Assembly (NCBI GenBank): GCA_003963435.1
Contig: RXJC01000071.1
Coordinates: 57,510 to 121,509, forward strand
Origin: Bradyrhizobiaceae bacterium
Lineage (GTDB): Bacteria > Pseudomonadota > Alphaproteobacteria > Rhizobiales > Xanthobacteraceae
Direction: 5' to 3'
Length of the DNA: 64,000 nt
Below the pieces are notes generated by a model. The model was not told the origin of the DNA, made no database searches, and was given only the letters and a program-made list of their open reading frames with translations. A program made the translations under genes and the position numbers. Positions 21,373 through 60,951 of this stretch are shown here, piece after piece; the stretch's first letter is position 1, and each line of letters begins with the position of its first letter.

Positions 21373-22686
21373 ATGACTTTCAAAGCAACCGCAGCCGGCG
21401 CCTCGCACGAGCCGACCTTACATTGCCCCAATTGCAATCACGAAATCCGGCTGACCGAGTCGCTGGCCGCTCCCCTCCTCGCTGAAACCCGTCAGCGCTT
21501 TCAAGAGCAACTGGCCAGCAAAGATGCCGAGATGGAGCGCAAGACCGAGGCGCTGCGGCTGGAACGCGAGCAGGTGGCGAAGGACCGCGCGCAAATCGAA
21601 GACCAGGTTGCGAGGCGATTGACCGCCGAACGCGCCCAGCTGGTCGCGGCCGAAAGCAAGAAGGCGCGGGAGGCGGCCGCGGCCGAGCTACAGACGAAAG
21701 AGGCGGAAGCTGCGGAGCTGCGAGCCACCCTGCTCTCCAACAACATGAAGCTTGCCGAGGCCCAAAAGCAGCAGGCTGAACTGATGCGGCAGCAGCGGGC
21801 GCTCGAAGAGGAAAAGCGCGAGCTCGACCTGACGATAGAGAAGCGCGTGCAGGCCTCGATCAGTGAGATCCAGATCAAGGCCAGGCAGGAAGCCGACGAG
21901 GCAGCGCGCTTGCGCGTCGCCGAGAAGGACCAGACCATCGAGTCGATGACACGCACGATCGAGGAACTCAAGCGCAAGGCCGAACAGGGATCACAGCAAT
22001 CTCAAGGCGAGGTTCTCGAGCTCGAGCTCGAAGAGCTTCTGCGCGGGCGTTTTCCAACCGATTCGATTGAGCCGGTTGGCAAAGGTGAGCTCGGGGCGGA
22101 CGTTATTCAACAGGTGAATGGTGCTATTGGCCAATCTGCCGGCATCATCCTTTGGGAAACCAAGCGCACGAAGGCTTGGAGTGACGGGTGGCTCGCCAAA
22201 TTGCGTGACGACCAGCGTCGTTCCGGCGCCGACGTCGCTCTGATCATCTCCCATGCGCTGCCGAAACATATCGAGCAATTTGACCTGGTCGACGGTGTAT
22301 GGGTGGCTCATCCGCGTTGCGCATTGCCGGTCGCCGTGGCGCTCCGCCAGGGTCTGATCGATGTGAGCAGCTCGCGCCTCGTTCAGCAGGGTCAGCAGAG
22401 CAAGATGGAGCAGGTTTATCACTATTTGACCGGCACGAAGTTTCGGCAGCGCGTCGAAGCGGTGGTCGAGAAGTTCAACGACATGCGTGAGGACCTCGAC
22501 AAGGAGCGCAAGTTCATGGGTCGTCAGTGGGCCAAGCGGGAGACGCAGATACTGGCCGTCGTGGAGTCGACGGTCGGCATGGTCGGCGACCTGCAGGCGA
22601 TCGCTGGCAAGGCCATGCCGGAGATACCGAGCCTCGAAGTGCCGCTGCTTGAAACCTCTGCCGTCTCTGAGCGGAGAGCGAGCTAG
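21373..22686 (+). CDS. DUF2130 family protein (coiled coil + nuclease-like C-terminal domain)
   Basis: CPNCNHEI zinc knuckle, long coiled coil, GADVIQQVNG...GIILWETKRTKAWSDGWLAKLRDDQR. Confidence 0.85.
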   Translation: MTFKATAAGASHEPTLHCPNCNHEIRLTESLAAPLLAETRQRFQEQLASKDAEMERKTEALRLEREQVAKDRAQIEDQVARRLTAERAQLVAAESKKAREAAAAELQTKEAEAAELRATLLSNNMKLAEAQKQQAELMRQQRALEEEKRELDLTIEKRVQASISEIQIKARQEADEAARLRVAEKDQTIESMTRTIEELKRKAEQGSQQSQGEVLELELEELLRGRFPTDSIEPVGKGELGADVIQQVNGAIGQSAGIILWETKRTKAWSDGWLAKLRDDQRRSGADVALIISHALPKHIEQFDLVDGVWVAHPRCALPVAVALRQGLIDVSSSRLVQQGQQSKMEQVYHYLTGTKFRQRVEAVVEKFNDMREDLDKERKFMGRQWAKRETQILAVVESTVGMVGDLQAIAGKAMPEIPSLEVPLLETSAVSERRAS

Positions 22687-26695: not shown

Positions 26696-28606
26696 TCACA
26701 CCACAACCACCTCGGCTTCGCCGCTCGCGAACCACTCGCGCTCGACGACCTTGCGCACCAGCTCCTCGGGCGCCTTTGTGTAGCATACGATGGCCAGGCT
26801 CTCCTCCGCCCGACTACAGGTGACATAGAGGAGGCGCCGGGTTCTGTCGTTGCTCGTTTCCGAGCCGGCGGCCAGATTCTTGCGGTCGGTATCGCTGGGC
26901 GGTTCAACACCAAAGAGCTTGTCGTATTTGAACAGGAAGCCCCGCGCCTCCTCGTCACTTATAACTACCATGACTCGCGGAAACTCGAGCCCCTTTACGC
27001 CTTGATGTGTACCAAACGGTGATTTTCCGCTGACGTATTCGTTGTAGGCCTCAATTTGCTCGAAGTTGGTGTTCAGCATCTCGCGCCAGGCCAAGATCTC
27101 TCCGGCCTCTCGCTCCTCACTCTCATCCGAGGAAGTATCGTCCGGCGCCGCAAACGGCGCCAACGCCTCCGGAACATCAAAAAGCCCGCTGGCCGCAACA
27201 TTCTCCAGCACTTCCCGGAACGTCGGCTTGTGCGACGATGCGAACAACGCGAGCAGAGCATCTGCCGCATTCTTTGCAAGCCTGAGCTGCTCGCTGCCCC
27301 CCGATTTGAGAGCGTCCGGAGCGAGCAGAGGTGAAGACTCGCGAACAATGCTTGTGAGGGCAAACGCGTCATTTGACCGCAGCGCTTTGACTGCCGGCAG
27401 CACCTGTCCACTGAAGAAATTCAACGACGGAGACGTTCCTTCGAGAAGCGAGGTCTGAACGCGGCTTTCTCGATAGAGCGGGCGAAACATCTCGGCAAAG
27501 CCGAACCGCACCGCCGCCATATGGTGTTCCAACGTCAGCGTTTTGAAGTTGCGAGGCTGATCTTTCCAGGCTGGATCGCCTGTGACTTCCGCCATTCTAT
27601 CGACGACGTGCTGCTCGACGCGCTGCTTATCGCTGCCGGCTTCCTGAACCGCGAACAACCTGACGTGTCCCTCCGGCTTGTCCTCGCGCCCAATCTGAAC
27701 GACGTCATCCACTTCGCTGCGAATGCGGTTGAGTAGGCGAATGACCCGGTGAGGACACCTATGGTTCATAGCCTTGCGCGGGAAGACCCAGCCGTGCAGG
27801 CCTTGGCCAAGATCGACCTTACCGTCGGCGTAAATGCGCTGCATCGTGTCCCCGAGTAAGCCGAGCCCAAAATGCTCCGCATTGTCACGCTGAACTTTCA
27901 GCAACGCTTCCATGAGGTGACGGTTCGTATCCTGGCTCTCGTCTACCAGCAAAATCGGGTATCGCGAAATCAAGAGGCGCTGAAGCGTGCCTTTTGACGT
28001 GAGAAACTCTGATGTGATGCCGATCACCTCAGCGTGGTTCAACGCGTCTCGGGTCCGATTGTCTCCGGTCGGGCTGTAAACGAACTTCACGATTCCATCG
28101 AGAGCGGCCAGGCGCCGCTTGCGGCTCTCAAGCGACCGGACGTTCTCTTGGTAGGTCTTGGTCGACCGATTCTTCGTACCGGCGACTGTTGTCTCAAGCT
28201 CCGCAATTCGGTTCGTCAATGACGTCCTTACCCAAGACCGGATGTCCTCATTGTGCCCGGATATCAAGGACCAAGCGAAGGCGTGTATCGTCGAGACGTC
28301 AATGCGCGGATCATAGTCCAACCGGCGAAGAATCTCGTCGCAGGCCGCATTGGTGTAGGTGATGACACCGAGCTTTTGCCGGGACAGCGCCAGACGCCGT
28401 CCAGAGCTCTGTCTTATGTGCTTGATAGCCTCAACCAAAGAACGCGTCTTTCCGGAGCCGGCACCGGCAAACAGAAAGAAGCTTCTGGGGTGATCCAAGT
28501 CCAGGCATGTCGCAATGACCCGATCGGCGTCTGAATCGCGATGATCATCGTCGCTGCGCAGATGATCAGGCATCTGCAACCTCCGGTTCCGTCGAGAGTA
28601 GTTCAA
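26696..28606 (-). CDS. UvrD/Rep-like SF1 helicase (GajB-like)
   Basis: Walker A FFLFAGAGSGKTRSL, Walker B ILLVDESQDTN, C-terminal RRLLYVTCSRAEESLAIVCY; overlaps upstream OLD gene by 41 nt. Confidence 0.88.
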   Translation of the reverse strand: MNYSRRNRRLQMPDHLRSDDDHRDSDADRVIATCLDLDHPRSFFLFAGAGSGKTRSLVEAIKHIRQSSGRRLALSRQKLGVITYTNAACDEILRRLDYDPRIDVSTIHAFAWSLISGHNEDIRSWVRTSLTNRIAELETTVAGTKNRSTKTYQENVRSLESRKRRLAALDGIVKFVYSPTGDNRTRDALNHAEVIGITSEFLTSKGTLQRLLISRYPILLVDESQDTNRHLMEALLKVQRDNAEHFGLGLLGDTMQRIYADGKVDLGQGLHGWVFPRKAMNHRCPHRVIRLLNRIRSEVDDVVQIGREDKPEGHVRLFAVQEAGSDKQRVEQHVVDRMAEVTGDPAWKDQPRNFKTLTLEHHMAAVRFGFAEMFRPLYRESRVQTSLLEGTSPSLNFFSGQVLPAVKALRSNDAFALTSIVRESSPLLAPDALKSGGSEQLRLAKNAADALLALFASSHKPTFREVLENVAASGLFDVPEALAPFAAPDDTSSDESEEREAGEILAWREMLNTNFEQIEAYNEYVSGKSPFGTHQGVKGLEFPRVMVVISDEEARGFLFKYDKLFGVEPPSDTDRKNLAAGSETSNDRTRRLLYVTCSRAEESLAIVCYTKAPEELVRKVVEREWFASGEAEVVVV

Positions 28607-30908
28607 CCTGCTTTCTTCTCAGTTGGTTGTCCAGCCACTCAAGCCCCTCTCCGATGTAGCGCGGGATCTTGAGACTTTCGAAATCCTCCGCCACCAGAAT
28701 ATTCAGTGCAAAAGCTCCTTTGTCCGCGTTGTTTCGGAGGGCCTCGAATAACTGTTCTCCGATCTTTGCTACGTCCGTTGCGCCCGCAATCGCCTCTCGG
28801 AACTTTCGGACCAAGCCCGCGCCTTCCAAGCGCCCGAAGAACGCCATGTTCTCAAACGCGAGCGCATCTTCGAATGTGTAAGGCAGAGCAGTCTGCGCAG
28901 TCGTGGCGGTCTCTGGCCAAACGACCTCGACCGGCGTTTGGTACGCCACGCAGACCTCGTGCATCAGAACACCCGGAAGCCTCTTGATTACGGCTCCATC
29001 CAGCAACTCATCAAGGCTCGATTTCTGCGGCAACCAGGTTTTGAGCGTGTCGTTGTTCGTCGTAAGCCCGGCACCCAGCTTCGGCTGGGCGGCGTGATAG
29101 CTGATCTTCTCTTTGGCCGTTTCTGTTGCAGGAGTCACTTTCCTCTCCTGGGCATCGAGATCCGTGATCACCAATGTGGTGAGCCCTAGGTGATGGACGA
29201 GCGGCTTGAGCCTATGTGCATGGCTACCGCCCACCTCGAGAATGGTGACATACCCCTGGTCCACCCTTGGGAAGCCGCGGCGAATGAAGTGCGGAAGTAA
29301 CACGCGCTCGGCAGTTCCCTCGACAAGGATAAGAGCATCAGCAAAGAATAAATCCGCGTGCTGGGCGCGCAGGTAACGAGCGACAAAGCGCGATGTCTCA
29401 TCCGACTGTCCGAACGCATTGGTGAGGTTCACGACGATAGAGACGGGAACCGCAATGCCGTTCAAGCCCGCAGGAAGGCGCCGGAAGTATCTCAAGCAAT
29501 CATACTGGATTTCGTGGGCGACGTGACTGGAATGCGTGCTGACAATTAGCTGAGTCCTCAGCAAAGTGCTGGAACGTAAATCCTCATGCGCCCGGAGAAC
29601 GTCGTACGCTTTCTTGATAAATACCTGTTGGACTTGCGCGTGCAGGTGCGCTTCCGGCTCTTCAACAAGCACGAGATGCAAGGGCTCGAATTCAGTCGCA
29701 TCGGGGTTACGTGCGGCCTTGCCAACCCGCATCCATGCGTCGCGAAAGCTCATCAGGCGGAAAATCATGGAGATAAGGTTTTGATAGCCGAGGCCGTTGT
29801 TTGCCTCCGGCAACCTCGCGATCGGCACCAATTCGCCGCCTTCGCGCACCACGTCCACTTCGAAGGTAATGGCGGTCTGATGGTTCAGACCGTCTACAGG
29901 GTGTATTCGAGTCGCTACCCGCGGCTTGGGATCCGTGACTCCGGGGTATCCAAGCCCTTCGACCTCCATGAAGGCGGCTTTGAAGCTTTCGGTGAGGCGG
30001 AGGTCGAACGCTTGCTGGGCGGCTTCGATCGCTCGAAGCGCATCCAGATCACTCGCTTCCGGATATTCGGAGGGATCGAGATGCTTTCGATAATAGGCCC
30101 GCAGCTGCTCAGACAGACGTTCTGGTGAGCGTGCCGCAAGACCTTCCTCGTCCTCTCGCTCATTCTGTGTGCCGCCAAATCCTCGCTGAGCGTTGATCTC
30201 GTTTACTCGTATCAGGCCGGCGAGCGGATCACCGTCGAGCGCGGGAACGAGCGGCGCGAGCTGCTGGGGTGCGGCAATCGAGTTCTCTGGCTCGACGAGC
30301 TTCGATGGATCGAGTGGATAGGATCTTACAATTAGATATTGATTTAACCGACGCGTCAGGAAATCCATCATGTCGGCCGGCCAGATTGTAAGGTTCTTCG
30401 GCTCGTCCCCTTCGGATCCTGGCAAAGCCCCGGCGCTAGCCCCTCTTATGGCAGTCGCGTCCGTCATTGCCTGCACGAAGGCCTTGTGAAACTCCACGGG
30501 ATCCTTCGGCTCCAGCCTCAGTCGAACGCCAAGCAAACCTCCGTTCCAATCCAGCGTAGGCACCAGCTTGCTGACGTGGTGGAGTTCGGTTGAAGCGACC
30601 CGTAGCCAAACATCGATCGCCGGGAGGTGCGGTGTCCAGATATCGAGGCTGAGGTTTGGTGCAGTTCCGCCAGCGCGCGCCGCCATCCAATCTGCCCCGA
30701 TCTTGTTCAGCGCGCCCCAATGCACAAGAGTTATGTCGTGGACTTGAAATTGGCGCTGCCTTGGTATGAGAAATCGCCGCATCGCCAGCATTGCCGACGT
30801 CTTGCCGCTGTTATTCGCTCCGACAAAGAGCGTCTTCTCCTCAGCGAGGTCGATCCGGACTGAAAGCAACTTTCTGAAATTTACGATTTCGATGAGACTT
30901 AGATACAT
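28566..30908 (-). CDS. OLD-family ATP-dependent endonuclease, AAA + TOPRIM (GajA-like)
   Basis: LSLIEIVNFRKLLSVRIDLAEEKTLFVGANNSGKTSAM; TOPRIM LILVEGTAERVLLPHF...LVITDLDAQ. Confidence 0.88.
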   Translation of the reverse strand: MYLSLIEIVNFRKLLSVRIDLAEEKTLFVGANNSGKTSAMLAMRRFLIPRQRQFQVHDITLVHWGALNKIGADWMAARAGGTAPNLSLDIWTPHLPAIDVWLRVASTELHHVSKLVPTLDWNGGLLGVRLRLEPKDPVEFHKAFVQAMTDATAIRGASAGALPGSEGDEPKNLTIWPADMMDFLTRRLNQYLIVRSYPLDPSKLVEPENSIAAPQQLAPLVPALDGDPLAGLIRVNEINAQRGFGGTQNEREDEEGLAARSPERLSEQLRAYYRKHLDPSEYPEASDLDALRAIEAAQQAFDLRLTESFKAAFMEVEGLGYPGVTDPKPRVATRIHPVDGLNHQTAITFEVDVVREGGELVPIARLPEANNGLGYQNLISMIFRLMSFRDAWMRVGKAARNPDATEFEPLHLVLVEEPEAHLHAQVQQVFIKKAYDVLRAHEDLRSSTLLRTQLIVSTHSSHVAHEIQYDCLRYFRRLPAGLNGIAVPVSIVVNLTNAFGQSDETSRFVARYLRAQHADLFFADALILVEGTAERVLLPHFIRRGFPRVDQGYVTILEVGGSHAHRLKPLVHHLGLTTLVITDLDAQERKVTPATETAKEKISYHAAQPKLGAGLTTNNDTLKTWLPQKSSLDELLDGAVIKRLPGVLMHEVCVAYQTPVEVVWPETATTAQTALPYTFEDALAFENMAFFGRLEGAGLVRKFREAIAGATDVAKIGEQLFEALRNNADKGAFALNILVAEDFESLKIPRYIGEGLEWLDNQLRRKQVELLSTEPEVADA

Positions 30909-33688: not shown

Positions 33689-33703
33689 GTTCCCTATTTG
33701 TTC
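33689..33703 (+). promoter_or_regulatory. LexA (SOS) box GTTC-CCTATTT-GTTC
   Basis: Perfect GTTC-N7-GTTC immediately before the first ATG of the operon. Confidence 0.75.
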
Positions 33704-33704
33704 T

Positions 33705-35654
33705 ATGTATGATAAGGACGTAGACCTCATCTGTAAGGTAAGCGAGAAAGTGGCTCGTCCGTACGCGCAAGAGATTGAAAAACTTACCGAAACGCTGGCG
33801 TGGGCCGGATCGGCATCGATCGACGATTTGGCTCGCGCAGTGCGAACGGCCGCGCTCGGCCCCCTGGTGGCCGTCGGCTCGGGCGGCTCACTCAGCGCCG
33901 CGCACTTCCTCGCTCAGGTCCACCAAAGTTTATCCGGCCAGCTTGGACAGACGGCGACCCCTTCCGAGTTGCTTAACGCGCCTGCGCCACGTTCAGCCGC
34001 GATTTGGCTCTTGAGCGCTGGTGGAAGCAACGTCGATATCAATGGTGCTTTCGACGACGCGGTGGCGCGCGAACCTCGCCAGCTTGCTGTCCTGTGCGGA
34101 CGCGCGCAAAGCCGATTGTCGGATACAGCGCAGCAGCACTCCTACTGCGATCTGCTGCTCTACGAGCTGCCAGCTGGCAAGGATGGCTTTCTGGCGACCA
34201 ATTCCCTCTTCGGCTTTTGCGCCCTGATCTTGCGGGCCTATCTGGCAGCGACCCAAGCAAGTGCCGACTGGGACGCCATTGAGCAGCAAATGTCTCGCCT
34301 GCTCTCAGTAGAAAATCAAACGATGTGGCGCAACTCCACCGAACACTTGTGGGGGCGGTCGACAACGGTCGTGCTGCACAGTCCGAATGCCCGAGTTGGT
34401 GCGATAGATCTGGAATCAAAATTCACCGAAGCAGCAATCGGGAACCTTCATTACGCTGATTGGCGAAACTTTGCGCACGGACGTCATCACTGGTTGGCTA
34501 AGCGTGGAAGAGAGAGCGCGATCATTGCACTCATCGGCGATGACGAACCGCTCGCGGAACGGACACTCGCCCTGATACCCGATGATATCCCGGTCTCTCG
34601 CCTCCGATTGCCTGGCCCACCGGAAGCGGCCTCCCTTGGCGCCCTCGCAGCGTCACTGCTGCTGACGGGATGGGCGGGCGAGGCCCGAGGCATAGATCCC
34701 GGCCGGCCGGGCGTCCCTGAATTCGGACGAAAGCTTTACGGTCTCCCGCTCAAGAAGTCCGCAAAATCGCGTCGTGACGCGGAGATTGCCGCGATCGAAC
34801 GAAAGGCCTTCGCATCGCATGCCCAGCTTGTCGAACGCGGGCAGCTTACGTTCTGGCAGAGCGCGTACAACGACTTTAACGAACGACTGCATGCAGCATC
34901 GTTTGCCGGCGCCGTGCTCGACTATGATGGCACAATCGTAGACGCGCGCGCGCGCACTCTGCCGCCTGAGAAAGACCTTGTGCAGATCGTTGTCCGCCTC
35001 ATCGAAGATGGCTTGGTCTTGGCCATCGCGACGGGACGCGGAAAATCGGTGCGCCTGTCTTTGCGCGAAGTCCTGCCGAAGCCAGTGTGGTCCAGGGTGA
35101 CGATCGGCTACTACAACGGTCTCGAGATCGCCCCCTTGAGCGAGGATGGTTCACCGAACGATACGACCCGGCCGACAGAGGCTCTGGCCGCGGTTGCCGC
35201 TCGTCTGCGAGCCCAACCGGAGGTCTCTCTCTGTGCGGAGCAGACGGATCGCGCGCACCAGATCACCTTGGAGCCCAAGCATTCGTTGCGAGAAGATCAT
35301 CTGTGGCTGCTCGCGCAGCAGGCAATTCTGTCGGAGGGGGCCAGCGGAGTTCGCGTCGTGCGATCCAGTCATTCGATCGACATTATCGACGCCAAGCGCG
35401 CCAAGGGAGCCGTCGTCGATGCAATGCGAAACCGGGTTGGGAACGGCGCCATACTATGCGTGGGCGATAGGGGACGCTGGCCGGGTAACGATCACGAATT
35501 GCTGGCCGAACCCCTTTCGCTGAGCGTTGACGAGGTCAATCTCGACCCTGCGACGTGTTGGCACCTGGGCTCCGAAGGATCCCGGGGGCCGTCGGTTCTG
35601 CTCGAATACCTGAGGAGGCTGCGTCCGCGCGACGGTCGTTTCCTGTGGGAATGA
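33705..35654 (+). CDS. SIS-domain (double phosphosugar-binding) protein fused to a HAD-superfamily phosphatase
   Basis: SIS: GPLVAVGSGGSLSAAHFL, IWLLSAGGSNVD; HAD: AVLDYDGTIVDARA, AIATGRGKSVR, LCVGDRGRWPGNDHELL. Confidence 0.8.
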   Translation: MYDKDVDLICKVSEKVARPYAQEIEKLTETLAWAGSASIDDLARAVRTAALGPLVAVGSGGSLSAAHFLAQVHQSLSGQLGQTATPSELLNAPAPRSAAIWLLSAGGSNVDINGAFDDAVAREPRQLAVLCGRAQSRLSDTAQQHSYCDLLLYELPAGKDGFLATNSLFGFCALILRAYLAATQASADWDAIEQQMSRLLSVENQTMWRNSTEHLWGRSTTVVLHSPNARVGAIDLESKFTEAAIGNLHYADWRNFAHGRHHWLAKRGRESAIIALIGDDEPLAERTLALIPDDIPVSRLRLPGPPEAASLGALAASLLLTGWAGEARGIDPGRPGVPEFGRKLYGLPLKKSAKSRRDAEIAAIERKAFASHAQLVERGQLTFWQSAYNDFNERLHAASFAGAVLDYDGTIVDARARTLPPEKDLVQIVVRLIEDGLVLAIATGRGKSVRLSLREVLPKPVWSRVTIGYYNGLEIAPLSEDGSPNDTTRPTEALAAVAARLRAQPEVSLCAEQTDRAHQITLEPKHSLREDHLWLLAQQAILSEGASGVRVVRSSHSIDIIDAKRAKGAVVDAMRNRVGNGAILCVGDRGRWPGNDHELLAEPLSLSVDEVNLDPATCWHLGSEGSRGPSVLLEYLRRLRPRDGRFLWE

Positions 35655-35739
35655 TCCGAAAAATCGACAATCGGGTCGCTCGATGCACACATAAGTTGTA
35701 ACTTAGCTGTCCAATTCGCCCCTGAAGGGAGCAGAGTAG

Positions 35740-36849
35740 ATGCCCGTCAGATCCCAGCGCGATGCCGAGCCAGCGCCGACTATCAGGTCGATGAAGGCGC
35801 GCGGTACGAAACAGGCCGGAAGCAAACGCCCTACCGCGTTCGGATCCGGCTTGATTGCGCTCGATCTCATCGTCAGTGCTGATTCGTCTTCGTCATTTCA
35901 GGCTCATGCTGGCGGGACGTGCGGCAATGTGCTCACCGTGCTCGCCTATCTGGGATGGGAGTCCTATCCGGTTGCGCGACTTGGCAACGATGCCGCCTCC
36001 CAGGTCTTACAGGCCGACATGAGCCGATGGGGCGTGCATCTTGATCATGCTCGCTGCACCCCCAGTGCTCACACCCCGATCATCGTGCAGCAGATCCGCC
36101 GCAAGCGCGACGGCACCCCCACCCATTCGTTTTCCTGGGCCTGCCCTCGTTGCGGCAAGCGACTACCCAGCTTCCAGCCGATCACCCGTACCGTAGTGGA
36201 TTCGATTGCGCCTCACCTTGCGTCGGCAAAGGTTTTCTTCATGGATCGCTTGTCGAGAGGCATTCTCGACCTGGCCGCTCTGGCTGCCAAGAATGGCGCC
36301 CTGATCATGTACGAGCCATCGGGCGTTGCCGAACCGCGACTGCTCCGGGAGGCGATCGAACTTGCTCACATCTTGAAATACGCGGATGCGCGTCTTTCGG
36401 AAATCGAGAGGGCATGGACCGAGCGCGCGGCAACAGCGATCGAGATTCAGACCATGGGCAACCGTGGACTTCGCTACCGGCATAAGCTTGGCAGCAAGCG
36501 AAGCAACTGGCTCAGCATTCCGGCCATAAATGCCCCTCGGCTGGTCGATACCTGCGGCTCCGGAGATTGGTTCAGCGCCGGCTTTCTCACCGAGATATTC
36601 AGACTGCAACCTGAGGGCTTGTCAAAATTGAAGGCTGCCCAACTGACGCAGGCGCTTCACTACGGTCAGGCGCTCGCTGCCTGGAACTGTGGTTTCGAGG
36701 GAGCTCGAGGCGGCATGTACGCCTCGACCAGAAACGCGTTTCAGAAGCAGATCGCAAAGTTGCTCGAGGGCGGCACCCCTGCTCTCCCGACATCCGCCAA
36801 AGCGACGGTCGAAGCCGAAAGTCTCGCCTGCCCCGCTTGCGTCGCGTGA
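35740..36849 (+). CDS. PfkB-family (ribokinase-like) kinase with CxxC insert
   Basis: AHAGGTCGNVLTVLAYLGWESYPVARLGNDAAS; anion-hole/catalytic VDTCGSGDWFSAGF; CPRCGKRLP insert. Confidence 0.8.
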   Translation: MPVRSQRDAEPAPTIRSMKARGTKQAGSKRPTAFGSGLIALDLIVSADSSSSFQAHAGGTCGNVLTVLAYLGWESYPVARLGNDAASQVLQADMSRWGVHLDHARCTPSAHTPIIVQQIRRKRDGTPTHSFSWACPRCGKRLPSFQPITRTVVDSIAPHLASAKVFFMDRLSRGILDLAALAAKNGALIMYEPSGVAEPRLLREAIELAHILKYADARLSEIERAWTERAATAIEIQTMGNRGLRYRHKLGSKRSNWLSIPAINAPRLVDTCGSGDWFSAGFLTEIFRLQPEGLSKLKAAQLTQALHYGQALAAWNCGFEGARGGMYASTRNAFQKQIAKLLEGGTPALPTSAKATVEAESLACPACVA

Positions 36850-36870
36850 GGGCATCATCCCGGAGGAGGA

Positions 36871-37971
36871 ATGAAGGAAGAACTTGCGAAGGGCCTGCTC
36901 GCTCTGGTCATGGAGTGGGATGGGAATCGGCTCGCTCAGGAACTTCCGCGATTGGATCGGATGGCCCGCTTCAAGTACGACGAATATCAGCAATTCGGTC
37001 CAGGTCAAAAATTTCTCGAGGCTCTTTGCCTTTGGTTGCAGCAGTTCAGAACGACGACCGAGCGTGAAACCGCTTACGCCTTCGTGCGTGATCGCGTCGT
37101 CTTCGTTTCCGCAGCGGACATGCGTCATCTCGTCGAGTCCAGTTTCCCCGACGTTATCCGGCCCTCATTGATCACCGACGTAGCAGCCTCCATCGGAATC
37201 GCCCCCCACTGCATTACTGAAGTGATCCGTCATCCAGACTATAAACGCTCGCTTCGTCAGACGCTTTTCCTGGGGCTAAGCGATGGCTCGAGGATGGATA
37301 TCTTTCGGCGAGCAGCTTCCCTGGACAATGAGCAAGTCTGGCAGGCTTACGAGATCGGCAAGCCGAAATCAGCGGGTATGCTCAAGGATTTGCAATCATC
37401 TCTTGGCGACGCGAATGCACAGTTTGCTCGGATTGTCCTGATCGACGACTTTTCAGCGAGCGGAATTTCCTACATCCGTAAAGAAAAAGATCAGTGGAAG
37501 GGCAAGCTGGTCAAGGCATTGAAGCAATTTCAGCCCGGCGAAGACGCCTCCTGTCTGATCGAATACTCAACGATCAAGATGCAAATCGTTCTCTATGTGG
37601 CGACCAAGGCAGCCGTCGATTACATCGGCAGCCAGTTAGCCCTCTACTGCGAGGAGCAATCCGTTCCGGTACCTAGCATAACCGCGGTCTACGAGCTTGC
37701 TCCAGACATGGCGCTTGCCTCGCCCCGCGACAAGGAGTTTCTTGCACTGGTCGATTCCGACACTTACTATCGAACGCGCCCGCTCGACGAGCATGAGGCG
37801 AAAGGCGGAACAGACACCATCAAGCGCGGGTTTGCAGCTTGTGCCTTGCCTTTGGTCCTTGCGCATAATTGTCCCAACAACAGCATTTATCTCCTCTGGG
37901 CCGATCCTCTCGAAGTCGGTAGTGCTCGTGGCCTCTTCCCGCGCATCGTGCGTCATCGCGAGGCCTTATAG
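36871..37971 (+). CDS. Phosphoribosyltransferase-like protein (PRTase-CE-like)
   Basis: PRPP-loop-like IVLIDDFSASGISYI; tight operon position. Confidence 0.65.
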   Translation: MKEELAKGLLALVMEWDGNRLAQELPRLDRMARFKYDEYQQFGPGQKFLEALCLWLQQFRTTTERETAYAFVRDRVVFVSAADMRHLVESSFPDVIRPSLITDVAASIGIAPHCITEVIRHPDYKRSLRQTLFLGLSDGSRMDIFRRAASLDNEQVWQAYEIGKPKSAGMLKDLQSSLGDANAQFARIVLIDDFSASGISYIRKEKDQWKGKLVKALKQFQPGEDASCLIEYSTIKMQIVLYVATKAAVDYIGSQLALYCEEQSVPVPSITAVYELAPDMALASPRDKEFLALVDSDTYYRTRPLDEHEAKGGTDTIKRGFAACALPLVLAHNCPNNSIYLLWADPLEVGSARGLFPRIVRHREAL

Positions 37972-39887
37972 TGGCTCGGAACGCTTTTGCCATCCGGACC
38001 TCCGAGACATCCTCGCCGGACGAGATTTTCTCGCGATACTTCGCGCCCGAAGTGCTGAGCATCCTCCCTCAGGATCTGTTCGCCACAAGTGCGCTGGTGC
38101 TGCGGAGCGCCCCTGGCGGGGGCAAAACATCGCTTTTGCGGATATTCACTCCGGGTCCTCTGATTCAGGTCATTCGTAATCGACATCTCTCACCGCACGA
38201 CGAAATTCATCGAAGCCTGGCCCAGCTCGGTGTGGTCGACGAGGCGACGGCGCTCGCGTTCGGAATCCTCGTTCCCTGCGCCAGTGGATACGCCGAAATC
38301 GGCCCTCAACTCGAAGAACGGACGTCGCGCGCGCTTTTTCGCGCTTTGGTGAATGCTCGCGTCATCCTCCGGACGCTGCGAGCGCTGTGCACGCTCCATG
38401 ATCTCGAGTATCCCAACGGCTTGGGCACGATCACCTGCGAGTACGCGGCCTCGTTGTTCGACGAGGGACCTATTCCGCGAACCGCCGACCTCAGCGTCCT
38501 GCGCGCATGGGCCGAGGACGTCGAATCTCGCTGCTTCGCTCAACTCGACGCCATCGGGAACACATCCGTCGACCTGCCTCTCCACTTGCAGTTCGATGCT
38601 GTGCTGTGGCTGTCGCAGGTGTCGTTCGTCATTCATGGCAGGGCCGTAGCGGCAAAGCCAATCGTTATGTTCGACGACGTCCACCGGCTCCGGCCGTGGC
38701 AAAGAACGCTGCTGTACAGCGAACTACTTGACCACCGGCAGGGTGCTTCCGTCTGGTTTGCCGAACGAACCTATGTGATCAATCCTTCCGAGCTTCTGAC
38801 AGGCGCGATCCCGCGGCGCGACTACGAAGAAGTGCGCATGGAGCAGGCTTGGAGCACCGCAAAACCCAAGCAGTACCTGAACTTTGTGACGTCGATTGCA
38901 AATCGCCGCATGGCGCAGATGCGCACCGATCTGGAAAGCTTCGGCGACTATCTTTCAAACACCGTCACGGACTACGCGACTCAAGACAAAATCGCAAAAG
39001 CCTTGCCAGAGATAGAACGGAGGGTTCGCGCCCTGGCCAGTGGTAGCGGGCTCTTTGACGAGTGGATCGCAAGCGCGGCTTCCGCGGCGGCAGAGCCTTT
39101 CGATAAGGCCATCGAATGGACCCGAATAGGCATTCTCATCACGCGTGAGAAGCAGAAGGTTCAAGCGTCCCTGGATTTGGCGCCTCTCTCTGACGACGAT
39201 CTGGAAGCTCGAACAGGCTCCGGCGTGCCGGCCGCTGCAGAGAGGTTTGTCTGCAACAAGCTCGACGTACCCTATTTCTACGGAATAGAACGCGTGGTGC
39301 GCCTCAGCTCCTATAACGTCGAGGAGTTTCTCCAGATCTGCGCGGTCCTGTATGACCATATTTATGCGCAAAAAATCACGCGCTCCCGCGGCAGTGGCCC
39401 GGTATCGGTCAGCGCAAAACTCCAGAACGACGCCCTGACCAAACTTGCCGAGAAGAGGTTCAAAGAGCTGCCCCGCCTGTTCGCGCTGGGCCCCCAGGCG
39501 CAAAGACTCATCGAAGCAATCGGCCTCATGTGCCGTGAGAAGACCTACGAGCCCAACGCGCCCTATGCACCGGGCGTCACGGGCATTGCCCTTTCCACGC
39601 AGGATCGCGAGGCGCTGGTGCAAGCTGGGCGCGACGGTCCTGGCAACCCGTATTTCGAACTCGCCTCCACAATCAGCTCTTGCGTGGCGCAAAATCTGTT
39701 TGAAGTGCGAGACAATCACAAGCAAGACAACAAGACGTGGGTCGTCCTGTATCTAAACCGGCTATTTTGCGCGCAATTTGATCTTGTCTATCACGTTGGC
39801 GGTTGGCAACGCGTCTCGCTTCGCCGCCTTCAGGATTGGTCGCGCGGGGTGGTTCCGCGGGCGAATGAAAAGATAACATTGGTCTGA
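37971..39887 (+). CDS. P-loop AAA-type ATPase (ORC/CDC6-like?)
   Basis: Walker A SAPGGGKTSLLRIF, Walker B PIVMFDDVHRL; GTG start overlaps upstream stop. Confidence 0.7.
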   Translation: MARNAFAIRTSETSSPDEIFSRYFAPEVLSILPQDLFATSALVLRSAPGGGKTSLLRIFTPGPLIQVIRNRHLSPHDEIHRSLAQLGVVDEATALAFGILVPCASGYAEIGPQLEERTSRALFRALVNARVILRTLRALCTLHDLEYPNGLGTITCEYAASLFDEGPIPRTADLSVLRAWAEDVESRCFAQLDAIGNTSVDLPLHLQFDAVLWLSQVSFVIHGRAVAAKPIVMFDDVHRLRPWQRTLLYSELLDHRQGASVWFAERTYVINPSELLTGAIPRRDYEEVRMEQAWSTAKPKQYLNFVTSIANRRMAQMRTDLESFGDYLSNTVTDYATQDKIAKALPEIERRVRALASGSGLFDEWIASAASAAAEPFDKAIEWTRIGILITREKQKVQASLDLAPLSDDDLEARTGSGVPAAAERFVCNKLDVPYFYGIERVVRLSSYNVEEFLQICAVLYDHIYAQKITRSRGSGPVSVSAKLQNDALTKLAEKRFKELPRLFALGPQAQRLIEAIGLMCREKTYEPNAPYAPGVTGIALSTQDREALVQAGRDGPGNPYFELASTISSCVAQNLFEVRDNHKQDNKTWVVLYLNRLFCAQFDLVYHVGGWQRVSLRRLQDWSRGVVPRANEKITLV

Positions 39888-39891
39888 CGAT

Positions 39892-41079
39892 ATGTGGTGG
39901 GACCCCTACAACCTATATCGAGCCGAGCAGTTCAGCGCGTTTTGGCGCAAGCATCTGGAGAACGGTGAGCGGAGGCTGCTGTTCATCGTCGGAGCCGGAT
40001 TCGATCCACGTGTGATGGGCCCCGCGAAAGAGATCATTACCTGCGCTCCTGACGCTACGCGCAAGTGTCTGGCAATCGACATGTCTGAGGGATATGGCAC
40101 GGACGCTGCTGCGTCCAAACTCGGCAGCAAGAACCTGACCGGCTTGAAAGCGTTGTTTCCTGCCGATCGACTTGAGGTCAGACATCTGGTTACGACAGAC
40201 GCGGACGGAATTAGAGACGTTTCACGAAGTGCAGCTGTTCTGTTTGCGGATTTTGAGACCTGGATTTCGGACTACACCGACATCGTTGTCGATATCAGCG
40301 CACTCCCTCGCCTGGTTTATCTCACTCTGCTCAATACGCTGCTCACCCACCTCGTGAAGCCGGCCTCCGAAACGCCACTTGGCTCAACAATCAATCTCCA
40401 TGTCGTTTATGCGGAATCAGCAGCGATTGACAGCGCCATTGCCAAGTTTGAGATCGACACAGATCTCGCACCTATCCAGAGCCTGGCAATCCGGCTCGAC
40501 GAAGAAGCTTCTTTGGGCTGGCCGGTCGTCTGGTTTCCGGTGCTGGCGGAGGACGTGCTCGAGCAGCTCACTCGCATCGGTGAGCGCACCAATCCCGATG
40601 AGATCTGCCCGGTACTACCCATTCAGTCCGCAGATGCTCGCCGCGGCGACAACATCATTAATGCCTTGGGAGAATTCCTGTTCGATCGCTACGATGTCGA
40701 TATCCGCGACATCTTGCGGGCGACCGAATGGAATCCGTTCCAACTCTATCGCTCGCTGATGCAGACGATGGCACGCTACGAGGACAGCCTCAAGCTCGCG
40801 GGCGGCGCAAAATTTGTCTTGTCGCCCTTGTCGAGCAAAGGCCTATCCATAGGATGCTTGCTGGCGGCCTTCGAGAAGCGGGCGACCGGCAATCGCGCAG
40901 GGGTCCGCGTCGGCATGGCGCACGTCGAATCCAGGCGGTATGAAGCGGTCAAGATACAATCGAATCCGAAGTATCAGCTCATTTCCGCCTGGGTCGCGGG
41001 TGAATGCTATAGTGTGACCTCACACAAAAAGCAGACCGAAGAAGTGCAGCAAGCGCTGATCGGCGCGGACGCCAAATGA
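39892..41079 (+). CDS. Unknown protein, last gene of the SIS-HAD/PfkB/PRTase/ATPase operon
   Basis: 395 aa, N-terminal RRLLFIVGAGFDPRV; 4 nt after upstream stop. Confidence 0.7.
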   Translation: MWWDPYNLYRAEQFSAFWRKHLENGERRLLFIVGAGFDPRVMGPAKEIITCAPDATRKCLAIDMSEGYGTDAAASKLGSKNLTGLKALFPADRLEVRHLVTTDADGIRDVSRSAAVLFADFETWISDYTDIVVDISALPRLVYLTLLNTLLTHLVKPASETPLGSTINLHVVYAESAAIDSAIAKFEIDTDLAPIQSLAIRLDEEASLGWPVVWFPVLAEDVLEQLTRIGERTNPDEICPVLPIQSADARRGDNIINALGEFLFDRYDVDIRDILRATEWNPFQLYRSLMQTMARYEDSLKLAGGAKFVLSPLSSKGLSIGCLLAAFEKRATGNRAGVRVGMAHVESRRYEAVKIQSNPKYQLISAWVAGECYSVTSHKKQTEEVQQALIGADAK

Positions 41080-41159
41080 CAGTGCGGCCGATTCGATCGA
41101 GGCGTCCCAAATCCGTTTCTGCACGGTGTCCAAGCGGAAGCGGGGCAATTGCCGCTCAC

Positions 41160-41341
41160 GGCCCTGTCGCGAGCCGCACTTTCTGGCTAGCTCCGAAGGC
41201 CTTCGCTTCGTAAGAAGCGGCAAGCACAACGCCACCGCCGACGGCGATTGGTTTGCCGCGCAACGAAGGGTCAAGCAGCTGCTCTACCGAGGCTTAGAAG
41301 GCGTCCAGGTCCGCATGCAGGATGGTGGCTGTCGTTGCCAT
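41160..41341 (-). pseudogene. dinB (DNA polymerase IV) N-terminal relic
   Basis: Reads [49 protein letters not shown]...; stop replaces the conserved Y of DAFYASVE. Confidence 0.8.
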
Positions 41342-41385
41342 CCCGATCGTTCGCCCCGTGACGTTTCGAGGACGTTTTAGCGAAA

Positions 41386-41400
41386 GAACATAATGAGAAC
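41386..41400 (-). promoter_or_regulatory. LexA (SOS) box GAAC-ATAATGA-GAAC upstream of dinB relic
   Basis: Perfect GAAC-N7-GAAC. Confidence 0.7.
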
Positions 41401-51589: not shown

Positions 51590-51650
51590 GGTTCGAGTCG
51601 GGGGAGGGACGCGAACCCCCGACCCCAGGATTATGATTCGTGCGCTCGGT
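51590..51650 (-). other. tRNA(CAU)-like 3' fragment (possible att scar)
   Basis: Reverse strand reads ...ACGAATCATAATCCTGGGGTCGGGGGTTCGCGTCCCTCCCC: anticodon and T-arm of a tRNA without a recognisable 5' acceptor. Confidence 0.5.
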
Positions 51651-52726
51651 TATCTGGTTCGCTCATTGCCTCGTGCTTTGTCGCCCCCTTCTGCATCGAT
51701 GCCCTGGTCCGCGCCGCGCCGCCGAGTATTGGCAAGCTCCGAAAGCTCGTTCTTCAGCGCATGCCGGCGAGTTTCAACGGCGGGCATGTCGTCGACGAAT
51801 TGCCGAACTTGGCGAGCTAACTCGTGATCTGCTGCCGCTCCAGAGCGCTGTAGCTCCGCGGCATATTCGAGATATCGCCGCCGGATCGCGTCCTGACGTG
51901 ACTTAATCTGTTCATCCCAAGGGAGTTTGGCGGTCCTGCCGCCCCTCACCTCCGAAAGCACCTCCTTACGGGCGAGCCGATCGACATCGGGCGTGATCTT
52001 TCGCTTGCGGAGAGCGAGGACCGCCCCGCGATCGGCCTTTCGAACGCGTCCGCGGGTTCGCCGCGGCGTTGCCTCCGCTGCAATCCCGCGAAGCCTGAGT
52101 TCGCCCGCAAAACGTTCGCGCCAGGCCTGAAGATCGGCCTTACGCGGGTTGAGGCGCTTGCGGTCATGGCCCAGGGACCGAACGGTCAAGTGCACGTGGG
52201 GATGCTTGTCGTCGAGATGCTGGACGAAAACGTAGTCGTGATTGCCATCGAACGTCTCGATGGCAAAAGCCCGAGCTGAATCCTTGACTGCGATGGCATC
52301 GGTGCCAGCCGGCATCGATAGAATGATGTTGACCGAGAGCGACCCATCGCGGCGACGCTTGTCGTCGAAACCGGCATCATCCTCCCAGCGTTGCTGCAGA
52401 TCTTTCAGTCCGGAACGACCCGTCAGAGCCGCGCCCTGCTCTGTTTCCGCATTGAGCTCCCCGTTTCGCGTGATGTATGCGAGGTGCGACCTCAGATGCG
52501 CCACGCTCTTGGTGCGACCAGTGATCTTGACCATCACCTCTGGCGCTCGGCGCACGATGCGTTCGAGCTTTGCACGCATCGCCGGCGTAAGGCGGCCGGG
52601 GACAGCTGGATCGGAAATATCCCACTCGGCTCGCCGAGGGCGCCGATTGGGCGTTTCCCAGACATACGAGATCGGCGGAAGTTCGGACACCAGGTCGGTC
52701 GGCCGGGTCGAGTGGCGCCGACTCAT
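51650..52726 (-). CDS. Relaxase/mobilization nuclease
   Basis: VKITGRTKSVAHLRSHLAYITRNG; HUH-type HDYVFVQHLDDKHPHVHLTVRSLG. Confidence 0.85.
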   Translation of the reverse strand: MSRRHSTRPTDLVSELPPISYVWETPNRRPRRAEWDISDPAVPGRLTPAMRAKLERIVRRAPEVMVKITGRTKSVAHLRSHLAYITRNGELNAETEQGAALTGRSGLKDLQQRWEDDAGFDDKRRRDGSLSVNIILSMPAGTDAIAVKDSARAFAIETFDGNHDYVFVQHLDDKHPHVHLTVRSLGHDRKRLNPRKADLQAWRERFAGELRLRGIAAEATPRRTRGRVRKADRGAVLALRKRKITPDVDRLARKEVLSEVRGGRTAKLPWDEQIKSRQDAIRRRYLEYAAELQRSGAAADHELARQVRQFVDDMPAVETRRHALKNELSELANTRRRGADQGIDAEGGDKARGNERTR

Positions 52727-53256
52727 CGCCGCCCGTCCCAATAATCTGCGTTGCCATTCAACGCATTACGCAATTGCGCGAGCTCCCTTTCAATGACCAA
52801 TTTGGCCTCTTGAATTGCGGATAAATCGGGCTCAACCGCCCTGCCCTGCAGCACACTGGTGTTTGCGGCGCGCGCGATCTGGTTGATATTGCCGCCGATC
52901 CGGTTGAGCTCGCGAACGATCGCACGAAGCGCGTCGTGCTCGTCCGGGGAATGCTGCACCGGTGATCCCAATCGCGAGCGCACCAGCGCAACGATCCAAC
53001 CGGTTCGCGTCATGCCACGCTGATGTGAGACTTCCGCGAGCTGCCGCATCTCGCTCTCGCGAAATCGCACCGTCACCTTCTCCGGCCGTCCGACCGGCAA
53101 TGCCAAGATGCGCGGCGCTGGCGCAGCAAGTGCATCAGCAATGAGACGCCGCAGCAGCGCGGATTTACCGCCCTGGGTAGCTGCAAGAACTGAGAACTCT
53201 GCCGCGACTTCGTCGGAGACGCGAAGCGAAATCAGAGCCATGCACTCCGATCCCAA
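52723..53256 (-). CDS. MobC-like plasmid mobilization relaxosome protein
   Basis: RHH-like N-terminus; LRAIVRELNRIGGNINQIARAAN; overlaps relaxase. Confidence 0.75.
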   Translation of the reverse strand: MGSECMALISLRVSDEVAAEFSVLAATQGGKSALLRRLIADALAAPAPRILALPVGRPEKVTVRFRESEMRQLAEVSHQRGMTRTGWIVALVRSRLGSPVQHSPDEHDALRAIVRELNRIGGNINQIARAANTSVLQGRAVEPDLSAIQEAKLVIERELAQLRNALNGNADYWDGRR

Positions 53257-53656: not shown

Positions 53657-54637
53657 TCATGCCGACAGGATCTCTTCGATTGTGATGGTCGATGCTGGAA
53701 CCTCTTCCGCTACTTCTGCGCCATCGATCAGCAGCACGGCATGGCGTGAGCCTCGAGACGCGAGTCGATCGACCAGAAGACAGCCCGTGCGATCTTGGTG
53801 ACGCACTCTGATTGTCAGCGATGTACTCATTCTCGCGTTCCGATCGACTGAAGAGTTGAAGGACCTTTCCGCGATCGCCGTCACGCGGTCTCTCTCCATG
53901 GGTCGCAATGCCGTTTGCGGTGCGATCTCGCTTCGTGGTGGTTGATCTCCAGGGGGGCCCTCGCCATCAGCAGGGGAACCGCGGACCTCGGTGCGAATTT
54001 TGCGGGCCAACTGACGGGCGTGTGCATCGGTGAAGCTCTCCTGTGCTGCGCATAAGGTCTCGACGGCGTTGGGCTGCTCACGCCAAGCCTGGTAGAGCTC
54101 ATACACAGCACGGATTGACGAGCCAGCAAGCTTCGACCGAAGGAAGTCCGGCATATTCTTGACCGACGCGTAGCGAGACACCCAGTCCCTGGGCTTACCG
54201 AGCTTGCGCGAGATGTCAGCCTGGTTATCACCCTGCTCCAAGCGGTCCGCGATGAACGCCGCAATTTCGGGGGCATTGAGGTCATCGCGCTGGATATTCT
54301 CGATCATCTGGACATAACGATCCGCAGAACCAGCGGCATGAATGAAAGCCGGCATCACACGGAGCCCGGCGCGCTTAGCAGCACGATACCGCCTCGCACC
54401 CATGACGATCACGTACCGGCCTTCCTCGGTCGCTTGCCGCAGCACGATCGGTTGCAGCACTCCATGCTGAAGGACCGATTCCGCAAGCTCGTCGAGCTTC
54501 TGTTCGTCGAAGCTGCGCCGGGGCTGGTCCGGATCTTCGTCAATACGGTCGATAGAGATGCAAGTCGGTTGCCCGATTGTGGCGGCACCATCTTCCGCGG
54601 CGGCGATGAGCTGCTTAAAGCTGAGATCAAGCGCCAT
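53657..54637 (-). CDS. parB: ParB/RepB-family partition protein
   Basis: RIDEDPDQPRRSFDEQKLDELAESVLQHGVLQPIVLR...GARRYRAAKRAG. Confidence 0.88.
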   Translation of the reverse strand: MALDLSFKQLIAAAEDGAATIGQPTCISIDRIDEDPDQPRRSFDEQKLDELAESVLQHGVLQPIVLRQATEEGRYVIVMGARRYRAAKRAGLRVMPAFIHAAGSADRYVQMIENIQRDDLNAPEIAAFIADRLEQGDNQADISRKLGKPRDWVSRYASVKNMPDFLRSKLAGSSIRAVYELYQAWREQPNAVETLCAAQESFTDAHARQLARKIRTEVRGSPADGEGPPGDQPPRSEIAPQTALRPMERDRVTAIAERSFNSSVDRNARMSTSLTIRVRHQDRTGCLLVDRLASRGSRHAVLLIDGAEVAEEVPASTITIEEILSA

Positions 54638-55388
54638 GTATCGACTCGTTCATCTGCGCGACGATCTTGGCGAGAACATCGCGGATTTCCCGACCAGCCT
54701 CCTGCGCAGAGCGGCGCTTCAGTTTCCAGACCGGCAGGCGTTCCGCGACGGCCTCAGCGTAGCCATCCCTTGCAACGATCTGGCCCGGAAACACATATTT
54801 GCCGGCCTCGCGCAAGAGCTGCTCCAGATGCATCCTTTGACGGGGCGATTTCGTGTTGAAGTTCGAAGGCAGCAACCCGAGGAACTTCGTATCCTGGCGG
54901 CCATAACGCCTCTGCACACCGATCACGGTCTGCATCAGACCTTTGACGCCCTTGATCGAATAGTCCTCCAGATAAATAGGAGCCAGCACATGCGACGCTG
55001 CAACCAAACAGCCGACGCTGCGAAGTCCAAGTGAAGGGGGCGTATCGATGACGCAGGCATCGAACTGATCCGACGCGATAGCGAGGTTCTCTTGCAGAGC
55101 CGTTATGGCGGCTGCATTGCTGCGATCGAGATCCGTCAGTGAGCTATCGGCCGGCGCGAGCGTTAGGCCTTCGTCGTCTCGAGGTACGACCCGTATCCCC
55201 GGCTTGAACAAATCCGCGGCTAACGTTGAACCGGCGTAATGCCTCAACGTATCCGTCGCATTGCTCTGCGCATCAACGTCGATCATGAGAACGCGGAGAT
55301 TTGCTTCCGCCATGAACCAAGCCAAATGTACAGCAAGAGTCGTCTTGCCGACCCCGCCCTTTTGATTGTTGATGACAATTGTCTTCAT
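54627..55388 (-). CDS. parA: ParA-family partition ATPase
   Basis: KTIVINNQKGGVGKTTLAVHLAWFMAEANLRVLMIDVDAQSNAT. Confidence 0.93.
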   Translation of the reverse strand: MKTIVINNQKGGVGKTTLAVHLAWFMAEANLRVLMIDVDAQSNATDTLRHYAGSTLAADLFKPGIRVVPRDDEGLTLAPADSSLTDLDRSNAAAITALQENLAIASDQFDACVIDTPPSLGLRSVGCLVAASHVLAPIYLEDYSIKGVKGLMQTVIGVQRRYGRQDTKFLGLLPSNFNTKSPRQRMHLEQLLREAGKYVFPGQIVARDGYAEAVAERLPVWKLKRRSAQEAGREIRDVLAKIVAQMNESIHGA

Positions 55389-59454: not shown

Positions 59455-60687
59455 TCAGGCCGTTCGTTTTTCATGGAGCCGTGAGTTGATCTGCGACATC
59501 AGAATTGGTCCGAGCGAGAATTCGCCGACTTCGGCTTTTCGTGTCAGGCCGCGCAAATATCCGCCGGCGGAACGGATCGCGTCCCCTCGCTGCAGGATGC
59601 AGCCGACCACGATCGCAGCTTGGGTCTCGCCCATCACGGTCTGCGCCTCCTCCCAGGCGCTAGGACTGATCCCAAGCATGGATCGAACGACCGCCGCCGT
59701 CGCCAGGAAATCGCGCCAATTCGAAATCCCAGCCTTCGCATAATCGACGATGTCCGGGCATGCACTCAGGACCATTCCCAACGGATACGAACTTTCGGCG
59801 ACTCGCGATGGTTGAGGTTTTGGCTCAGCTCTCGCCGCCCTGCCTTCTTGAAGGCTAGGTTCAAGATCAATAGGGGCGTCTGGATTTGAATTCTGTATGT
59901 GGCGCTCAGAATGGGACTCATTGGCGCTCGGATTTTTGGATTTGATGTGCGCTTCCAGCAGATTGAGCACATCGTCAGCAAGTTGCGACAGCTCGTCGGC
60001 GATCGGCTCGAGCTCCTGGCGCGTCGCGGTGCGCGGAATCTGAGCGACCATCGTGCGGAAGGCGGCATGCACCTCCTGCCAATCGGCAGGCCCCTGCCCT
60101 GCCCTTCGCGTCGGGACGCCTTCTTCGATGCCAGTTGCAATCATCTTCGCGATGTCGCGCCGGCACAGCGTGATCCGCTCACGCACGAGCTTGAGCGCGC
60201 GGGCTTCGGCTTCGATATCGGCCGCCAGGCTCTCGAACTCTTCCGAGCGCACGACGAGCGGCGAGAGATCGAAGCCGAAGGCGAGTTCGATTTCGCCAGC
60301 ATCGTCCTTCCGGGCATACCGCTTCCCATTCGGACTGTCGCGCCGAACGATCAATCCCGCGTCGACCAGCACAGCGAGGTGACGCCGTAGCGTCGATGCC
60401 GGCATGCCGTGCGCCCGTCGACTGAGCTGATGGTTCGATGGGAAGACGATCAGATCATCCTCTCCTGTCAGCGCCGTCTCAGGATGGAAGGTCAAGAGCG
60501 CGTTTAACACCGAGAGCGAGCGCTCCGACACCCCAATACGTGGCCGTGCCGTGCAGATGGCGTGGAAGATCTTCCATTTGTGCACGATCTTTTCGGGGGG
60601 ACGTTCGGTTGCGACCATCTGGCTTGCCACATGGGCAAGCGTCAGCGATCGCCGCCCAAAGGGCGTCGTTGGAGAGTGTGACTGCAT
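59455..60687 (-). CDS. repC: Plasmid replication initiator RepC
   Basis: TPFGRRSLTLAHVASQ, LTFHPETALTGEDDLIVFPSNHQLSRRAHGMPASTLRRHLAVLVDAGLI. Confidence 0.93.
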   Translation of the reverse strand: MQSHSPTTPFGRRSLTLAHVASQMVATERPPEKIVHKWKIFHAICTARPRIGVSERSLSVLNALLTFHPETALTGEDDLIVFPSNHQLSRRAHGMPASTLRRHLAVLVDAGLIVRRDSPNGKRYARKDDAGEIELAFGFDLSPLVVRSEEFESLAADIEAEARALKLVRERITLCRRDIAKMIATGIEEGVPTRRAGQGPADWQEVHAAFRTMVAQIPRTATRQELEPIADELSQLADDVLNLLEAHIKSKNPSANESHSERHIQNSNPDAPIDLEPSLQEGRAARAEPKPQPSRVAESSYPLGMVLSACPDIVDYAKAGISNWRDFLATAAVVRSMLGISPSAWEEAQTVMGETQAAIVVGCILQRGDAIRSAGGYLRGLTRKAEVGEFSLGPILMSQINSRLHEKRTA

Positions 60688-60744
60688 GTCTTTGCCTCAT
60701 GCGGGCAAAGAAAATCTGCTCGCCAAAACGGCGCCGTTGCTAAA

Positions 60745-60845
60745 GACGCTTGACTGCGATTCGCGAAAGTGATTCTCTGTCAGTCGCCAAACGTGACGAG
60801 AGAAGGCTTTCGGACGGAGACGTTCCGGGGGCCTTTTTTCTTTTT
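60745..60845 (+). ncRNA. Candidate repABC counter-transcribed RNA (ctRNA), antisense in the repB-repC gap
   Basis: Strong hairpin GGCTTTCGGA-CGGAGACGT-TCCGGGGGCC followed by TTTTTTCTTTTT; 5' end is estimated. Confidence 0.65.
60805..60845 (+). terminator. Rho-independent terminator of the ctRNA
   Basis: 10-bp stem (with G-U pairs) 60805-60833 and T-run 60834-60845. Confidence 0.75.
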
Positions 60846-60951
60846 CCGCTATGCTCCTGTGGTTAGAGAACGGAAACGCGGGTACGCATCGCATCGCCCG
60901 ATCATGAGAGGTCCGGACGACGCCATATCCAAAGCGGCAAGACGCGCGATG

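Follow-up and report, generated by a model that had tools for sequence, protein, structure and literature searches.

A mobile five-gene operon of two exchangeable modules, with PRTase-CE, ORC-CDC6-like and CARF6 genes and a likely defence function

A five-gene operon identified in the 64 kb stretch of DNA analysed here (hereafter the window) is a mobile unit that occurs in more than 10 bacterial phyla and is composed of two separate evolutionary units, genes A-B and genes C-D-E, which are swapped between loci. Its genomic context makes a defence function likely. The five open reading frames are intact, lie on the same strand and are separated by 85, 21, −1 and 4 nt, in agreement with the original prediction of five co-directional genes except for the second gap, which had been given as 22 nt. 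The operon comprises the following features (window coordinates):

33689..33703, + strand: LexA-type (SOS) box GTTC-N7-GTTC, the same pattern being present at other operon starts
33750..35654, + strand: gene A, tandem SIS phosphosugar isomerase/deaminase plus HAD-IIB phosphatase (fold, profile and motifs)
about 33750-34830, + strand: SIS part of gene A (profile and structure)
about 34890-35630, + strand: HAD-IIB part of gene A (profile; invariant HAD motifs)
35740..36849, + strand: gene B, kinase of the PfkB family, in which four cysteines probably form a zinc site (profile 1.2e-16; GSGD invariant)
36871..37971, + strand: gene C, PRTase-CE, an effector predicted to act on nucleotides or PRPP (PF24390, 1.8e-18; PRPP-loop DD invariant)
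37971..39887, + strand: gene D, ORC-CDC6-like AAA ATPase (PF24389, 1.2e-26; Walker A and Walker B intact)
39892..41079, + strand: gene E, CARF protein of the CARF6 family, predicted to sense a ligand (CARF6 profile 5e-110)

The start of gene A was corrected to the GTG at window position 33750 (MARPYAQE...), because the homologues L046-L048, L132 and L038 begin at the corresponding GTG. Judging by its gene content, the contig appears to be a repABC plasmid or chromid of Bradyrhizobium: RepC and RepA with a RepB-like ORF between them are encoded at 59455-63194, and a MobA/VirD2-type relaxase and a second ParA/ParB-like pair at 51650-52741 and 53657-55388.

A scan with gene A yielded 235 relatives in 85,462 species genomes (80 kept; more than 10 phyla). 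Co-conservation of the five genes, on which the original prediction had been made beforehand to stand or fall, was found at 67 of the 69 gene A loci with enough contig, the only loci short of partners being L061, which has lost C and D, and L094, in which A is truncated. The commonest gene order was A-C-D-E-B, and the orders A-B-C-D-E, B-A-C-D-E and C-D-E-A-B were found as well. Twenty plasmid records carried gene A, 10 of them predicted to be conjugative, and no copy of the gene was present in phage records; two IMG/VR contigs classed as viral (L125 and L126) hold all five genes. At one locus (L110:11821-14710) gene C is disrupted by what appears to be an insertion sequence of the IS3 type, and at another (L084:11932-12582) an extra gene of 216 aa between A and C perhaps encodes a dUTPase/dCTP-deaminase-like protein with a membrane tail.

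The enrichment near defence genes that had been anticipated for the operon was borne out. At a threshold of 1e-20, 68 PADLOC families were matched by the 125 flanking proteins of 19 loci as against four by 125 control proteins encoded far away on the same contigs, a ratio which overstates the number of genes, as one protein can match several PADLOC families. The flanking families include PrrC, AbiE, HEC-01, type I specificity, CBASS parts, HmaC and dGTPase. In the window, a full-length Gabija pair (26696-30908, − strand) lies 2.8 kb upstream of the operon:

28566-30908, − strand: GajA (PADLOC, 4e-264)
26696-28606, − strand: GajB (PADLOC, 2e-238)

It is from this context that a defence function of the operon appears likely. 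The region of the Gabija pair also encodes, at 21373-22686, a DUF2130 protein whose ZorA-type match is weak (9e-8).

The division of the operon into two modules emerged from comparison of 77 non-redundant loci, in which pairwise identities correlated at 0.93 between A and B and at 0.95-0.97 within C-D-E, as against 0.64-0.77 between the two sets. In the A-B tree the window is placed inside a mostly alphaproteobacterial clade of 16, and in the C-D-E tree it lies on the other side of the central branch, grouped with L036, L133, L135 and L137. Forcing either tree's grouping on the other dataset was rejected (p-AU 1.7e-61 and 3.3e-77) and L135/L137 require a second swap (5.8e-6), the groups for the p-AU tests having been named after the trees had been seen. 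Moreover, on two rhizobial plasmids a single A-B-NADAR set is accompanied by two C-D-E triplets that differ in type (L135:11393-25666 and L140:7758-20016). As swapping is free and one A-B can be shared by two triplets, the modules probably communicate via a metabolite and not through a co-evolved interface or tight complex.

Units without A-B gave an indication of the roles of the individual genes. L041 consists of three genes, for a PRTase-CE, an ORC-CDC6-like ATPase and a CARF6-like protein. In L042 (7671-12726) a C5-cytosine DNA methylase directly precedes an HD-CE gene, an ORC-CDC6-like ATPase and a CARF6-like gene, possibly representing a modification-sensing variant, and L039 combines a calcineurin-like enzyme with the ORC-CDC6-like ATPase and with a third gene in which no similarity to E could be detected. 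Since a PRTase-CE, an HD-CE or a calcineurin-like enzyme can stand before the same ATPase, the slot of gene C is exchangeable. A-B, on the other hand, were seen with PRTase-CE only and not with the HD-CE or calcineurin-like units, which together with the exchangeable slot argues for C being the effector and for A-B handling its chemistry. A-B cannot be a universal antidote, because L041 has the PRTase-CE, ORC-CDC6-like and CARF6-like genes and lacks A-B. In a genome of the window's own genus, a protein kinase-like domain is fused to an ORC-CDC6-like ATPase in a protein of 1239 aa (L040:7494-11210).

C, D and E fall into families that earlier catalogues list as conflict or CARF proteins. Gene C scored 67.8 bits against PF24390 (profile positions 4-242 of 253) and gene D 94.1 bits against PF24389 (positions 1-566 of 571), both with a curated cut-off of 27, so that the memberships which the original prediction had tentatively suggested were confirmed over nearly the full length of both profiles. 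The PRPP loop of gene C is intact, as are the catalytic motifs of the operon's enzymes in general, and C also showed a distant match to the retron protein PRTase_III-A (8e-10). The PRTase-CE, HD-CE and ORC-CDC6-like families (PF24390, PF24391 and PF24389) were reportedly named by Nicastro et al. in NAR in 2023, and CARF proteins are said to have been classified by Makarova et al. in 2020. Gene E, previously regarded as an orphan, turned out to belong to the CARF6 family, whose PADLOC profile was matched by all 55 homologues examined; 10 of these also matched CARF1, two CARF3, one CARF4 and one Csx1. Its AF2 model (pLDDT 88) found poor best matches among PDB structures, a Csm6 (9w3u) ranking 41 with a TMq of 0.36, and searching the PDB by sequence with E or C returned no informative match. 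Among 387 alphaproteobacterial genomes CARF6 was matched three times, in no case by a lone C-D-E unit.

In gene A, residues of about 15-370 form a tandem SIS and residues of about 395-640 the HAD-IIB phosphatase, whose motifs are invariant. The SIS part was missed by Pfam and recovered by profile and structure only, its structural matches being the NagB-II isomerase 8fdb, GlmS 1moq and the glucosamine-6-phosphate deaminase 2cb0 (TMt 0.66-0.78). In a MAFFT L-INS-i alignment, K238, E241 and H257 of gene A correspond without gaps to the catalytic Lys, Glu and His of GlmS; the phosphate loop, however, is unlike that of GlmS (SAGGSN versus SQSGET). Gene B contains the catalytic D276 in its GSGD motif, and an internal CPxCG and a C-terminal CxxC were both present in 36 sequences, both absent from 10 and mixed in two, a co-occurrence that points to the zinc site. 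The SIS-HAD and ribokinase-like identities originally proposed for A and B were upheld. An ADP-heptose analogy (GmhA/HldA/GmhB) for the pair was abandoned, as the SIS part of gene A is tandem and NagB-II/GlmS-like. SIS and PfkB enzymes, in part with HAD, are common to A-B and to the GlmS, NagB-II, FrlB-FrlD and GmhA-HldA-GmhB pathways, from which A-B differ by the SIS-HAD fusion, by a tandem that is not GmhA-like, by the altered phosphate loop and by their obligate partners C-D-E. Ordinary catabolism of a rare sugar or glycated amine through an FrlB/FrlD-like deglycase and kinase would account for the tandem SIS and PfkB, the enzyme pair of fructoselysine-type pathways, for a weak match of B to fructoselysine 6-kinase (1.4e-5) and for the NagB-II/GlmS-like SIS. 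Such a role appears very improbable: the conserved genes include no transporter or sugar regulator, PRTase-CE, ORC-CDC6-like ATPase and CARF6 are not known from any catabolic pathway, the phosphate loop departs from that of GlmS and the setting is that of a defence island.

A further association was observed with NADAR genes. At 12 loci such a gene is separated from A or B by 2-102 nt; NADAR genes are absent from the window operon and turned up nowhere else in 2.15 Mb of loci nor in 266 kb of control DNA. On two plasmids NADAR directly precedes A, with no PfkB found nearby. NADARs are ribosyl N-glycosidases and antitoxins which reverse guanine ADP-ribosylation (PMC9503650, PMC11543638, PMC11125620), and YbiA, a NADAR protein of E. 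coli, belongs to a LexA-controlled operon that includes a phosphoribosyltransferase-like protein (PMC11125620). The 12 loci thus have NADAR in common with the DarT-NADAR and YarT-YbiA toxin-antitoxin systems (PMC11543638, PMC11125620), but no ADP-ribosyltransferase is annotated beside NADAR in those loci that are annotated. We infer a (phospho)ribosyl theme common to the PRTase, the ribokinase-type kinase, the phosphosugar isomerase, the sugar phosphatase and the ribosyl glycosidase.

Taken together, we tentatively favour a mobile, SOS-regulated and probably anti-phage or anti-mobile-element conflict system of two modules, in which A-B restrain or clear the chemistry of C. In the first module, E would sense a ligand, D would gate C, and C would attack PRPP or nucleotides, upon which growth or phage replication would stop. 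In the second, A-B, joined by NADAR in some loci, would constitute a pathway acting on sugar or ribosyl phosphates, with a kinase, a tandem-SIS isomerase/deaminase and a HAD phosphatase as its enzymes; this pathway would signal to the first module by a small molecule and would most likely restrain or clear the chemistry of C until triggering. The parts of effector, sensor and restraint or antidote are thus putative assignments for C, E and A-B, respectively. A precedent is Clover (CloA dGTPase and CloB), in which a nucleotide-targeting effector is restrained by a small molecule of the partner enzyme (PMC12265719); the analogy is one of working only, as no common protein families were found, the enzymes of the operon are different ones and its sensor and ATPase are separate. 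A bolder version, which we regard as unlikely, is that PRTase-CE adds or releases phosphoribosyl on a nucleobase or amine and that A, B and NADAR are the erasers, recombining freely with CARF-gated effector triplets in a DNA-damage-induced toxin-antidote logic.

Alternatively, A-B (and NADAR) could make an activating ribosyl- or sugar-phosphate second messenger, which E would read and so switch on C via D. Consistent with this, E is a CARF protein whose ligand must come from elsewhere, since the operon has no oligonucleotide cyclase and the genome no Cas10, and A-B are obligate partners of C-D-E. A messenger role is nevertheless possible rather than likely, given that one CD-NTase-type (SMODS) gene is present on another contig of the genome and that L041 and L042 have CARF6-like third genes and no A-B, so that CARF6 sensing does not generally require A-B.

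Comparison with known systems set the operon apart in several respects. From type III CRISPR and CBASS it is distinguished by the lack of Cas10 and CD-NTase among its five proteins, and from other CARF6 proteins E is set apart by belonging to an operon without either Cas10 or an oligonucleotide cyclase. The PRTase effector of retron type III-A (PMC12548924) is the distant relative of C noted above, but that system includes a reverse transcriptase, which none of the five proteins is. The closest units are those in which PRTase-CE or HD-CE is combined with an ORC-CDC6-like ATPase and, as the third gene, a CARF6-like one, to which the operon adds the obligate A-B and sometimes NADAR. No description of the five-gene set was found in the literature searched, which did not extend to the primary PRTase-CE and CARF classification papers and hence does not prove its absence. 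The original claim of an undescribed system accordingly fails for C, D and E, as members of catalogued families, and stands, as far as could be checked, for the obligate A-B module, its link to NADAR and the module swapping. PRTase-CE is, as far as we found, a predicted immune effector to which no chemistry has been assigned; the substrates of A-B (and NADAR) are likely to be linked to its action, so that its target becomes approachable from these enzymes. What CRISPR-free CARF proteins sense likewise becomes testable through the operon, and the swapping, with two effector triplets beside one A-B, suggests a general restraint or antidote logic.

The perfect GTTC-N7-GTTC box predicted ahead of the operon is real, and its significance derives from its position. 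GTTC-N7-GTTC is the LexA box of Alphaproteobacteria. Its number is not significant in the window (2 observed, 2.1 expected), and the genome-wide count of 168 is about equal to that of the reversed control. Within −250/+90 of the operon start, however, it was present in 27 of 43 alphaproteobacterial loci, which are related and hence not independent events, and in none of 54 loci of other groups, whereas control patterns (the same arms at a spacing of 6 or 8, and others) were found in 0-1 of the 43. In the window the box (GTTCCCTATTTGTTC) ends 46 nt before gene A, and in all Bradyrhizobium homologues it lies 60-67 nt upstream of the gene A GTG; across loci its arms are constant, and the N7 part and the distance to the start vary. 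It is missing from 16 of the 43 alphaproteobacterial loci and from all other groups scanned, and the LexA-type boxes of Gammaproteobacteria and Actinobacteria are essentially absent from operon starts. Conservation of this motif at the operon start supports a predicted SOS (LexA) control in Alphaproteobacteria and ties the operon to the SOS response. The box, like the LexA-controlled YbiA operon (PMC11125620), would also fit an operon that is induced in the SOS response to repair or clear away damaged nucleotides or glycated ribosyl compounds and plays no part against phages. We consider this improbable, as the operon is spread patchily, on plasmids and amid defence genes and integrases, as C occupies an effector slot open to exchange and as a CARF sensor is present. 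Just downstream of the operon, a DinB-like pseudogene (41100-41400, − strand; start at 41341, with an early in-frame stop) has a GTTC-N7-GTTC box of its own at 41386-41400.
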